A stretch of DNA of 43,988 nucleotides from an uncultured Thiotrichales bacterium (GTDB lineage Bacteria > Pseudomonadota > Gammaproteobacteria > CAIRSR01): the NCBI GenBank assembly GCA_903824965.1, contig CAIJYR010000207.1, positions 1 through 43,988 of the forward strand, in the 5' to 3' direction. A program made the position numbers and the translations under genes. The stretch's first letter is position 1; every line of letters begins with the position of its first letter. Positions 15,363-20,327 of the stretch are shown in pieces. The notes beneath the pieces are model-generated. The model had not been told where the DNA came from. It saw nothing but the letters and a program-made list of their open reading frames with translations, and searched no databases.

Positions 15363-17768
15363 CTAAAGAGATTTCTCACGCAACGCTGCGCCAAAATCAG
15401 ACGCCAATCGCTGCACCACAGCAGCTACTACTGCATCCACTTCACTGTCCTTCAGGGTGCGCGAAGGTTCCTGCAAGGTCAACCCCATCGCGACACTTTT
15501 TTTACCCTGATCTCTGTTTTTTCCGACGTAGACATCAAAGGGAAGCAATTCTCGGAGCAACGGGCCAACCGTCTGTCGGACGCACTGTAAGAGTGCAGCA
15601 ACGGAAACCTCTTGTCCCACCAGAATGGCAATGTCACGGCGAATCGCAGGAAACTTGGAAAGAGGATGAAAGGCCGATACCTCGCCGCACCCAAGTGCTT
15701 CTACGTCCAACGCAAAGACCACCACCGAGGGTGCGTCTACTTCAAAGCCTTTTTGTACTACAGGGTGCAGGGTGCCGAGCCAACCCACAGGATGACCATC
15801 CCGCAGAAGCATCGCACTCTGCGCGGGATGAAGCGCAGGATGGGGGTGTGGCACACACTGAAACACGACCCGAGTACCCAGTTGATAGGCGAGGAGTGCT
15901 TCCAAATCCCCTTTTACATCAAAAAAATCGACCGATCGATGCACAGTCCCCCACTGTTCAGGATATACAGCACCAAGCGCAAGACCCGCGATGTGTGCCT
16001 TCTGCTGTACCGTGTGCTGTACCGTGGCAGGAGTAGGTAGGAACACCCGCCCCACCTCAAACAACCGTACTCTGTTTTGTTGGCGGTGTAGATTATGGCG
16101 TGCAGCTTGTAGCAAACCCTGCCAAAGGGTCGTGCGCATCACGGCCAAATCCGACGAGAGCGGATTGGACAAGGCGAGGGGCGCATGGTCAGGATCCACC
16201 AACGATTGGAGGGCGGGATCCACAAAACTGTAGGTAATGACTTCTTGGTAATCGCGGGCCACCAAAAACTGTGCCATGCCTTTCGGGGTGGCGGTGTTTT
16301 CGGGGCGAGGTGCCATTGCGGTGACGATGGTGGGCCGGGTGTGTGGCACCTGATCGTAGCCACGGATTCGCACCAGTTCTTCGATGAGATCCGCCTCTAG
16401 CCGCACATCGAAACGGAAAGCAGGGGGCGTGACCTCCCACCCTCCCTCTAGCGACGCAACGCGCATCCCCAAACGCTCCAGGATATCTACAACCCTGTCA
16501 GGCTCAATCGTCATGCCCAGCAGTCGTTCCATGCGGCTTGCACGCAATGCAATCTGGGGATGGCAAGGCAGGTACTCTGGAGAGACTATTTCGGTGATAG
16601 GCCCAGGGGTGCCACCGACGATGCTACACAGTAAAAAAGTCGCATATTCCACCGCGCTCCGCTGCAAGGTGGGATCAACGCCTCGCTCAAAACGATAAGA
16701 CGAATCCGTTTGAAGACCATACCGACGGGCACGCCCTACCACTGCCGCAGGTGCAAAAAAAGCACTTTCTAAGAACAGATCCGTGGTTTCCTCGCGGATG
16801 CCACTGCCCTCGCCGCCCATGATACCGGCGAGCGCCAGCACACTGGTCTGATCGGCGATGACCAGAGATTCGTCGTCCAACGTCAAGGGGGTGCCATCCA
16901 GCAGGGTCAGGGTTTCACCAGACACGGCCCGACGCACCACGATACCTCCCGTGAGGTTTTGGAGATCAAAAGCGTGCATCGGTTGGCCCAACGCAAGCAT
17001 CACGTAATTTGTGACATCCACCAGAGGGCCGTGGCTTCGCAAACCGCTCCGGCGTAGGCGTTCCTGCATCCACAAAGGGGTAGGGCAACGGCGATCCACG
17101 CCACGAATGACCCGCCCCACGTAGCGTGGACAATCGGCGGGGTTCATCACCTGCACAGGAAAAACATCTTCGCAAGTGGCGGATACTGGCTCCTGTGCTG
17201 GACCATGTACGGGCGCACGGTTTAATACACCCAACTCGCGTGCAATGCCCGCCACAGAAAGACAATCCCCTCGGTTCGGTGTGATGTTCACTTCCAGGGT
17301 GACGTCGTCCAAGCCCAAGAAGGCACGTAGATCCACACCAACGGGTGTATTCGGTTCTAGTTCTAAGAGACCGCTTGCTGTCGTAGAGAGTCCCAATTCT
17401 GTGGCAGAACAGAGCATCCCGTGTGACTCGACACCCCGCAACTTACTGCGTTTGATGCGGGTTCCGTCAGGGAGAACTGCGCCAATGCGGGCGCATGGGG
17501 CGGTCATGCCTACACGAACGTTCGAGGCTCCGCACACGATCGACAAGGGTTCGGTCTCTCCGACTTCGACCTGACACACCTGTAGCCGATCTGCCGCCGG
17601 GTGTGGTGCTACGGAGAGCACGCGACCCGCCACGATCCAGCTGAAGGGATTGGCGACTGGCTCAATGGCCTCGATCTCTAGTCCTGCGAGGGTCAGTTGA
17701 GAGGCCAGCGTAGCGTTATCTACGGGCAGATCAACCCACGTTCGCAACCATTGTACGCTGATTTTCAT
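15363..17768 (-). CDS. pheT: Phenylalanine-tRNA ligase beta subunit
   Basis: This 801-residue protein begins MKISVQWLRTWVDLP. An early tRNA-binding (OB-fold) region includes VCQVEVGE, GASNVRVG and HGMLCSATELGL. The B3/B4 editing domain, B5 domain (IEELVRIRGYDQVPH) and a C-terminal FDX-ACB domain (FPAIRRDIAILV) follow in the usual order. It forms the alpha2-beta2 enzyme with PheS. Length matches the family (about 795). It is normally a few bases downstream of pheS, but here about 1.5 kb of foreign DNA separates the two. Confidence 0.97.
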   Translation of the reverse strand: MKISVQWLRTWVDLPVDNATLASQLTLAGLEIEAIEPVANPFSWIVAGRVLSVAPHPAADRLQVCQVEVGETEPLSIVCGASNVRVGMTAPCARIGAVLPDGTRIKRSKLRGVESHGMLCSATELGLSTTASGLLELEPNTPVGVDLRAFLGLDDVTLEVNITPNRGDCLSVAGIARELGVLNRAPVHGPAQEPVSATCEDVFPVQVMNPADCPRYVGRVIRGVDRRCPTPLWMQERLRRSGLRSHGPLVDVTNYVMLALGQPMHAFDLQNLTGGIVVRRAVSGETLTLLDGTPLTLDDESLVIADQTSVLALAGIMGGEGSGIREETTDLFLESAFFAPAAVVGRARRYGLQTDSSYRFERGVDPTLQRSAVEYATFLLCSIVGGTPGPITEIVSPEYLPCHPQIALRASRMERLLGMTIEPDRVVDILERLGMRVASLEGGWEVTPPAFRFDVRLEADLIEELVRIRGYDQVPHTRPTIVTAMAPRPENTATPKGMAQFLVARDYQEVITYSFVDPALQSLVDPDHAPLALSNPLSSDLAVMRTTLWQGLLQAARHNLHRQQNRVRLFEVGRVFLPTPATVQHTVQQKAHIAGLALGAVYPEQWGTVHRSVDFFDVKGDLEALLAYQLGTRVVFQCVPHPHPALHPAQSAMLLRDGHPVGWLGTLHPVVQKGFEVDAPSVVVFALDVEALGCGEVSAFHPLSKFPAIRRDIAILVGQEVSVAALLQCVRQTVGPLLRELLPFDVYVGKNRDQGKKSVAMGLTLQEPSRTLKDSEVDAVVAAVVQRLASDFGAALREKSL

Positions 17769-17795
17769 GCTGGATTTTCTTGTGGCCTCTATAAA

Positions 17796-17826
17796 CCCCT
17801 TCCCCTCCAGGGGGGAGGGGAAGGGG
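17796..17826. repeat. Perfect 13-bp GC-rich palindrome upstream of pheT
   Basis: CCCCTTCCCCTCC (17796-17808) is exactly complementary to GGAGGGGAAGGGG (17814-17826) around a 5-base loop. It is the best example of the interspersed CCCCTC-type palindromes and sits at the pheT side of the inserted methyltransferase segment. Confidence 0.65.
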
Positions 17827-17933
17827 GAGACAGGGTGGTTTGATCTTGCTTCTTTCTCTTGTGCTTTGGCTTCTTGCTCTTGATGACTGTATTTTAACGT
17901 TGCTCCCTCAGTCTGTCTTTATCAGACATAAGA

Positions 17934-19055
17934 TCATTTCCTTTCTAAAAGAAACAGATACTCCGTGACATATTGGTTGCGATTCATCAGATTCCTACTA
18001 CCCCTATACGTGTTATATTTCGTCTCAAGCATTGTCAGTGTGCCGATGTTTTTGAGTCCAGATATAAATTCGTCTTTCTGAATGAATCCCTCGCTATTAT
18101 ACGATATCAAAAAGAAGCGTGCTTTAAGATTTTCTATAACAGAAAACAATTCATCCCTTGCGCTATAGGGTTTATTGAAATAGCTGCGTATCCAATCATC
18201 CGGTATCCCGCTAATTTTGCTACACGTTTCTGGTCGCTCGTAATGTGCTATTAAATTGAGCATAAAGTAATTTGACCCGTATGGATGCTGATTATATGGG
18301 GGATCTAGATAAGCAAGATCAAATTCTTCTCGGTTCGCGCAGCTAAAATCAACAGCATCCTTTTGTGTTATTTCAAAATCACATTCATAATCTGATAGTA
18401 ACGGCAAATGAACATGGATATCCCTAAGAATTCTTGTCAAAGCATTGGCACCCTCACCCCCAAATGCACCTATGCCTTATCTATTTTTGTAGAACCCTTT
18501 AAAAACACCGGCAGTATTATTGTGAATCGATGCTTTTACGAGCAATGGTGCCAAGAAATAAATTTGCAATCCATCGGGTATATCATTGATATGATGCCTT
18601 GCCGTATCGATATATTCTGCGTTCCTGCGAGTATAAAACACTCGCTCTCCCTGTTGTATATTATCATCGTGTAATGGCGAATATAATTCAGCGATGAATC
18701 CTCGTTTCCAATCATTTGCAATTTTATCTTTTAGGTGTCTCAGACAATCTTCTAGCTCATCAAAGTTGATCGCGCTTCTGTTAGACAAATAACACCCATT
18801 GATAATTTTTGCGTAATACTCGATATCGTTGGAAACAATGAAATCAGAATGTAATTTCATATAGCGTGATACAACACCACTACCAGAGAACAAGTCAATG
18901 AATGTAATTTTGTTTTTATTCAGCCTTGATTTAACGATATCGACCCCGTGCCCGATAAATGGTAACAGCCCTCTTTTATTGCCAATATAGGTAATCAACT
19001 CACTTTCAAGATACAGCGGATTTTCAGACTCAAGAATCTCGAAAGCGGGTTGCAT
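17934..19055 (-). pseudogene. D12-class N6-adenine DNA methyltransferase, split by an in-frame TAA
   Basis: Reading from 19055, the frame encodes a D12 (Dam-like) adenine methyltransferase. YIGNKRGLLPFI and FIDLFSGSGVVSRYMK form the SAM-binding motifs. NTAGVFKGFYKNR is followed by TAA at 18477-18479. The same frame continues GIGAFGGEGANALTRI, and then AYLDPPYNQHPYGSNYF carries the catalytic DPPY. The stop falls inside a normally conserved stretch, so this is a nonsense-mutated gene of 373 codons, not two genes. The DNA is clearly AT-richer than its neighbours, and no endonuclease partner is nearby. The gene sits between pheS and pheT, so it is a horizontally acquired orphan methyltransferase that interrupts a conserved operon. 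Confidence 0.85.
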
Positions 19056-19190
19056 CTCTCTTCCTGTTGTGTTTCTGATTCAGCACTAAAAAGCTTCTGA
19101 CTTTGGATCGGTTGACCTTGACTGAATTTTTGTTGTTGAACTGGTAACTGCTAAGGTACCTATCCAACGATTTTGACTTCTGGCGCAACC

Positions 19191-19212
19191 CCTCCCCGAC
19201 TCATCGGGAAGG
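19191..19212. repeat. GC-rich palindrome at the pheS side of the insertion
   Basis: CCTCCCCGA (19191-19199) pairs with TCGGGAAGG (19204-19212), eight of nine bases. It lies about 30 bp from the pheS stop. Together with the palindrome at 17796 it flanks the methyltransferase segment. Confidence 0.5.
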
Positions 19213-19244
19213 AATGTAATCCTACAGTCAAAACACTAAAAAGT

Positions 19245-20327
<1,083 letters not shown>

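Follow-up and report, generated by a model that had tools for sequence, protein, structure and literature searches.

The stretch of DNA analysed here (43,988 nucleotides, hereafter the window, with positions in its forward-strand numbering) carries between pheS and pheT an insert that is very probably what remains of a type II restriction-modification operon acquired by horizontal transfer, in which a D12 methyltransferase gene was followed by an EcoRI-family endonuclease gene, and which has since decayed. The earlier note had read this insert as a foreign methyltransferase that was inserted and then broken. The AT-rich composition, the interrupted frame and the place in a normally tight junction all stand, but that account was incomplete, since the start of a nuclease gene is still there and points to the remnant of a two-gene restriction-modification operon rather than to a lone methyltransferase. 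The features of the locus, listed from the pheS side, are the following.

19245 to 20318, minus strand: pheS, intact, upstream flank (Pfam PF01409, E 6.8e-104, and PF02912)
19170 to 19237, minus strand: pheS-side border palindrome, one copy of a dispersed repeat, pointing inward (fold z -3.79)
17934 to 19055, minus strand: D12-class adenine methyltransferase pseudogene, 373 codons and stop (PF02086; PADLOC; 85 conserved columns unchanged)
18477 to 18479, minus strand: in-frame TAA at codon 193, absent from the aligned homologues
17894 to 17929, minus strand: remnant of an EcoRI-family endonuclease gene, with start, 11 codons and stop (profile score; position as in homologues)
17784 to 17890, plus strand: pheT-side border palindrome, one copy of a dispersed repeat, likewise pointing inward, with approximate ends (fold z of -3.52 over 17770-17850)
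15363 to 17768, minus strand: pheT, intact, downstream flank (five PheT domains by Pfam)

The insert and the pheS-pheT junction in relatives

The genes pheS and pheT, named from their Pfam matches, run in the same direction on the minus strand and are separated by 1,476 bp (17769-19244). As the earlier note had claimed, the DNA that splits them is AT-rich and holds a D12 methyltransferase (PF02086): the GC content of the middle of the insert is 0.37-0.38 (18001-19000), against 0.58 in the pheT bin 17001-17500 and 0.57 in the pheS bin 19501-20000, and the methyltransferase gene has a GC content of 0.379 and a GC3 of 0.370, against a GC3 of 0.579 in pheT and 0.659 in pheS. The GC-rich palindromes that had been described at both borders were recovered by folding at the z values listed above, with none of 200 shuffles as good.

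The gene order around the insert is thrS, infC, rpmI, rplT, pheS, pheT and ihfA (we take the neighbours of pheS and pheT to be these genes), and it is the same in G001, of the same genus, and G003, of the same family; such an order suggests a gammaproteobacterium. In these two genomes the raw gap between pheS and pheT, measured between aligned ends, is 32 bp and 76 bp, respectively. The comparison with an empty junction in relatives, which had been proposed as a check, thus gave an empty junction in both readable members of the family. The methyltransferase had no match in the three other family genomes examined (G001, G002 and G003), and among the 37 genomes searched for it, matches were found only in the genome of the window and in a distant one (G032, 31%). 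None of the genomes examined showed the condition named as refuting the insertion, in which relatives carry an intact methyltransferase at this place as part of the operon. In G002, pheT is present and pheS was not found, and, close to a contig end, a chemotaxis receptor gene (L190:357-2375) is located some 0.45 kb upstream of pheT; this genome is therefore uninformative on the insertion.

The tightness of the junction was also evident across the class. The first draw covered 143 genomes, of which 138 yielded pheS and 139 yielded pheT; the two genes share a contig in 135, where the median raw gap is 33 bp. The second draw, of 299 genomes, yielded pheS in 295 and pheT in 297; 73 further genomes were among those listed for both genes, and 69 of these have the two genes close together, with a median gap of 48 bp. 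Among the 204 paired junctions in total, namely the window and 203 others, only two are longer than 600 bp, namely those of the window (1,479 bp raw) and G247 (1,036 bp). The junction in G247 (L235:250-1280) is a 1.04 kb GC-rich stretch in which no gene could be recognised by eye.

The interrupted methyltransferase gene

When read through its stop, the methyltransferase protein matches PF02086 in Pfam with an E-value of 4.9e-18 (66.2 bits, against a cut-off of 22) and the PADLOC type II methyltransferase model with an E-value of 5.6e-114. The NCBIfam scan returned one match, far under its cut-off, and no solved structure resembled the protein at E 0.001. The in-frame TAA reported by the earlier note is real and single: it falls at codon 193, between the motif DLFSGSG at residue 54 and the motif DPPY at residue 251, and consequently no single intact frame holds both the SAM-binding and the DPPY motifs. 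At the position of codon 193, all 110 aligned homologue rows are free of stops; L137 contributes two of these rows, L010 enters as a gapped match, and five more rows fall short of the position. Reassignment of TAA in the lineage was considered and rejected; the TAA flagged inside pheT of G003 proved to be the normal end of that gene.

In spite of the stop, the remaining sequence is well preserved. The expected residue is kept at 85 of 85 conserved columns, defined as columns at least 95% conserved over 100 homologues after L010, alignments shorter than 340 residues and identical copies had been dropped. Leave-one-out tests showed no deviation at conserved columns in 61 of the 100 homologues too. 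Downstream of the stop, all 43 of the 85 columns that lie there and the DPPY motif are kept. According to a hand calculation under a neutral assumption, the probability that k random missense changes miss all 85 columns is about (1-85/373)^k, which falls below 5% from k = 12. Since no change has reached the conserved columns, either the methyltransferase lost its function recently, or a variant or an error accounts for the stop.

The second possibility, in which sequencing, assembly or variation within the population explains the stop and the methyltransferase is a working orphan, is the least improbable of the alternatives considered. It is consistent with a single stop and no deviation at the 85 conserved columns, and also with the state of the genome, a draft in 265 contigs in which a single-base difference is possible. 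However, the local sequence gives no sign of error and the flanking genes are intact, and we regard this reading as rather unlikely. As the sequence stands, the locus is not a functional type II restriction-modification system with both genes intact and adjacent, because the methyltransferase is interrupted and the nuclease gene consists of 11 codons.

Border repeats

The palindromes at the two borders belong to repeats that are dispersed in this genome, where the query from the pheT side gave 35 matches and that from the pheS side 14 (own copies are counted and the two sets may overlap). In G001, the same queries gave one and seven matches, respectively, and in G002 and G003 neither border query found a copy at E 0.001. 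Among 26 copies examined, five lie inside an ORF of at least 150 aa and 21 lie outside; the latter are placed between co-directional ORFs in 13 cases and between convergent ORFs in five, never between divergent ones, and three are unclear. Because they are dispersed in the genome and mostly outside ORFs, the border palindromes are best described as host repeats.

The two copies nevertheless lie in inverted orientation, facing each other, and bound the foreign stretch, an arrangement that would fit the ends of one mobile unit that brought the genes in. Against this, copies of the repeat are scattered through this genome and occur also in the congener G001, which is without the methyltransferase; most copies outside ORFs lie between co-directional genes; the two copies at the borders are dissimilar; and neither a target duplication nor an element end was identified at the insert. 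We therefore do not accept as established that the palindromes are the inserted element's own ends, and consider it distinctly improbable. It is at the margin of the pheT-side copy that the nuclease gene is cut short, and a role of the repeat in the deletion of the nuclease is plausible.

The nuclease remnant

Four bases past the stop of the methyltransferase gene, a start codon opens a reading frame of MSDKDRLREQR, which then stops. This N-terminus was compared with those of intact partner proteins, such as MSKKDDLRKQRAGTIIN in L041 and MAKKDELRNQREGTIIN in L045. Against a profile built from nine partner N-termini, the remnant scored 34.1, whereas the maximum in 20,000 shuffles (order-1 Markov sequences of the region) was 21.2, so that none of the 20,000 scored as high; this score spans 16 of 17 positions and hence includes residues beyond the remnant's own stop, which was penalised. 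Counting both strands, the window has 4,914 start codons, and the runner-up among them scored 19.7. Beyond the stop, the residues NTVIK look slightly family-like before the repeat tail begins; a longer remnant is not claimed.

The partner genes were identified at the homologue loci, at most 113 in number, comprising the best 80 of 530 from genomes and 33 from viral contigs. A directly downstream partner of one protein cluster was found at 22 of these at most 113 loci, with lengths of 218-271 aa in 21 cases and 145 aa in one. The three partners scanned match the EcoRI family PF02963 (E 2.1e-18 to 1.3e-16). The nearest listed methyltransferase homologue, L041 (68%), has an intact partner, which matches solved EcoRI with an E-value of 1.1e-14. 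In the three scanned partners the PF02963 match begins at residue 14 or later, and the remnant ends before that part; what assigns the remnant to an EcoRI-family partner gene is its N-terminal sequence together with its position, as its place and spacing are those of the intact partner genes in homologues.

At least 80 of the at most 113 homologue loci show no such partner within 2.5 kb, some of them through contig ends, and a solitary methyltransferase is common in this methyltransferase family. That a solitary methyltransferase, for example a phage-borne one, inserted alone and then broke, with the 11 downstream codons a coincidence, would agree with these many nuclease-free loci, with the 33 homologue loci in viral contigs and with the nearest viral homologue, L121 (66%), which has no adjoining nuclease gene, but it is highly improbable given that the remnant sits in the partner's usual place with a score above all shuffles and every other start codon of the window and that the nearest listed homologue has an intact partner.

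At L121:1542-2660, a gene of 450 aa lies about 0.3 kb downstream and looks like a replicative helicase by eye, which suggests a phage-borne solitary copy there. Truncated nuclease starts of 11-12 codons were also seen at L129 (from 2463 onward, score 32.7) and L072 (from 6092 onward, score 23.1), immediately behind methyltransferase homologues that have no stops; these two cases are only suggestive, as the shuffles were built from the window sequence. Family and protein searches for an intact nuclease elsewhere in the four-genome family, neither run with a positive control, returned no match. No avoidance of GAATTC as a trace of past restriction was seen in the window (6 sites, against 5.4 expected).

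Comparison with known systems and specificity

Both the kind of system seen here, in decayed form, and its location have known precedents. The closest parallel in location is NmeDI of Neisseria meningitidis, which the available text of one report places between pheS and pheT (PMC7973814); another, as far as its accessible part goes, describes the pheS-pheT locus of N. meningitidis as encoding a type II system, with content that varies among strains (PMC3082526). As at this minimal mobile element site, a type II system occupies the same junction in the window. However, NmeDI is a cytosine-methylating system with the target RCCGGY, whereas in the present insert an adenine methyltransferase is paired with an EcoRI-family partner and neither gene is intact. 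In terms of the minimal mobile element comparison, the junction is occupied in the window and empty in G001 and G003, with the species represented by one strain. In E. coli, a restriction system has been shown to move in association with insertion sequences, according to the portion of that study at hand (PMC3031569).

In its gene content, the insert resembles the EcoRI-family systems (PF02963), to which the partners beside homologous methyltransferases belong and whose start the remnant carries; here, only 11 codons of the nuclease gene are left. As with solitary (orphan) methyltransferases, no intact nuclease gene lies beside the methyltransferase; unlike them, the start of the nuclease gene is still visible and the two-gene origin can be read.

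A Campylobacter jejuni locus (L064:2646-6098) encodes a protein 51% identical to the methyltransferase, directly after thrS and infC. The same thrS-infC order is found at L112:2366-6074, from another Campylobacter, and four other tested Campylobacter loci are without these genes nearby; in two of six Campylobacter loci, the methyltransferase is thus preceded by thrS-infC, the translation gene group that also precedes pheS in the window. The position after thrS-infC in L064 is presumably that of Cj0208. The enzyme M.CjeNI (Cj0208) is a solitary RAm6ATTY methyltransferase of C. jejuni, intact there and interrupted here. In the part of the literature available, M.CjeNI was first reported for GAATTC and later shown to methylate RAm6ATTY (PMC3526280), and the C. 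coli homologue of cj0208 was assigned the same RAm6ATTY motif (PMC4687069, as given in the text at hand). By analogy with the EcoRI-like partner and the C. jejuni relative, the lost system may have recognised a site with an AATT core.

Proposed origin and decay

The preferred reading, a decayed methyltransferase-nuclease operon, can be set out as a sequence of steps. The operon would have entered the pheS-pheT junction by horizontal transfer, and the intact pair would have modified and cut a site with an AATT core, possibly GAATTC or RAATTY. The nuclease was probably lost first. A live nuclease without its methyltransferase cuts the host chromosome, and loss of the methyltransferase under an active nuclease would expose it; this is the reason for the proposed order. 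The stop in the methyltransferase would then have arisen later, and recently. The border repeats may have helped in the deletion of the nuclease or in the insertion. At present, the locus should make no active enzyme, and its leftover effect would be about 1.5 kb and two strong hairpins between pheS and pheT.

If this course is correct, the locus captures the decay of a restriction system at an intermediate stage that can still be read, and both genes have left visible scars. It bears on the origin of solitary methyltransferases. The available text of a study of 43 pan-genomes holds that solitary restriction-modification genes rarely derive from decaying systems (PMC4176335), and the present locus would be one contrary example in progress to the view as stated there. 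Searching for truncated starts like those at L129 and L072 could measure how often orphans are former restriction systems.

Expression of pheT

The locus also indicates that an essential two-subunit gene pair tolerates an interruption of 1.5 kb. From the layout of the genes, it is reasonable to suppose that pheT is read through the insert or from a new promoter, as the earlier note had proposed. Polarity onto pheT is a reasonable concern, because the message should be untranslated past codon 192.

A promoter scan of the right strand gave one weak promoter-like match (17919-17891), against a shuffle mean of 3.5, and one terminator-like match was found at the pheS end, against a shuffle mean of 1.4. 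The lone weak match, being below the shuffle mean, was rejected as a new pheT promoter.

The junction as a possible wider docking site

Were restriction genes to dock repeatedly at the pheS-pheT junction in genomes well outside Neisseria, the insert would be one instance of this recurrence, and steady expression together with essential flanks perhaps favours capture and exchange there. We consider this wider claim unlikely. The class survey, which covered the pheS-pheT junction alone, without a control junction, and in which gene content was inspected only for gaps of at least 327 bp, gave it little support: only one of the nine other paired junctions in that range holds a recognisable gene, which is flavin-reductase-like (G098).

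Eight genomes of the two draws were unpaired, namely G002, G035, G071 and G079 in the first and G151, G177, G260 and G290 in the second. In G079 and G290, both genes lie near contig ends, and in G151, pheS is 74 bases and pheT less than 200 bases from contig ends. Restriction genes were seen in two of the others. In G035, an Mrr-type nuclease gene follows pheS (L230:4061-4930) and a type IIG enzyme precedes pheT (L229:1079-4234), on different contigs; in G071 (L228:319-4401), a PLD-SNF2 helicase lies, together with the beginning of a type IIG enzyme, just upstream of pheT, in divergent orientation. In the family of G035, G177 and G260 likewise have pheS and pheT in separate places, where the adjoining genes appear ordinary by eye, and G327, read on the pheT side only, also has ordinary-looking neighbours. 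In G194, of the same genus as G071, ordinary-looking genes precede pheT, and pheS was not found. Since these relatives have ordinary-looking neighbours there, the splits in G035 and G071 may predate the restriction genes or be independent of them.
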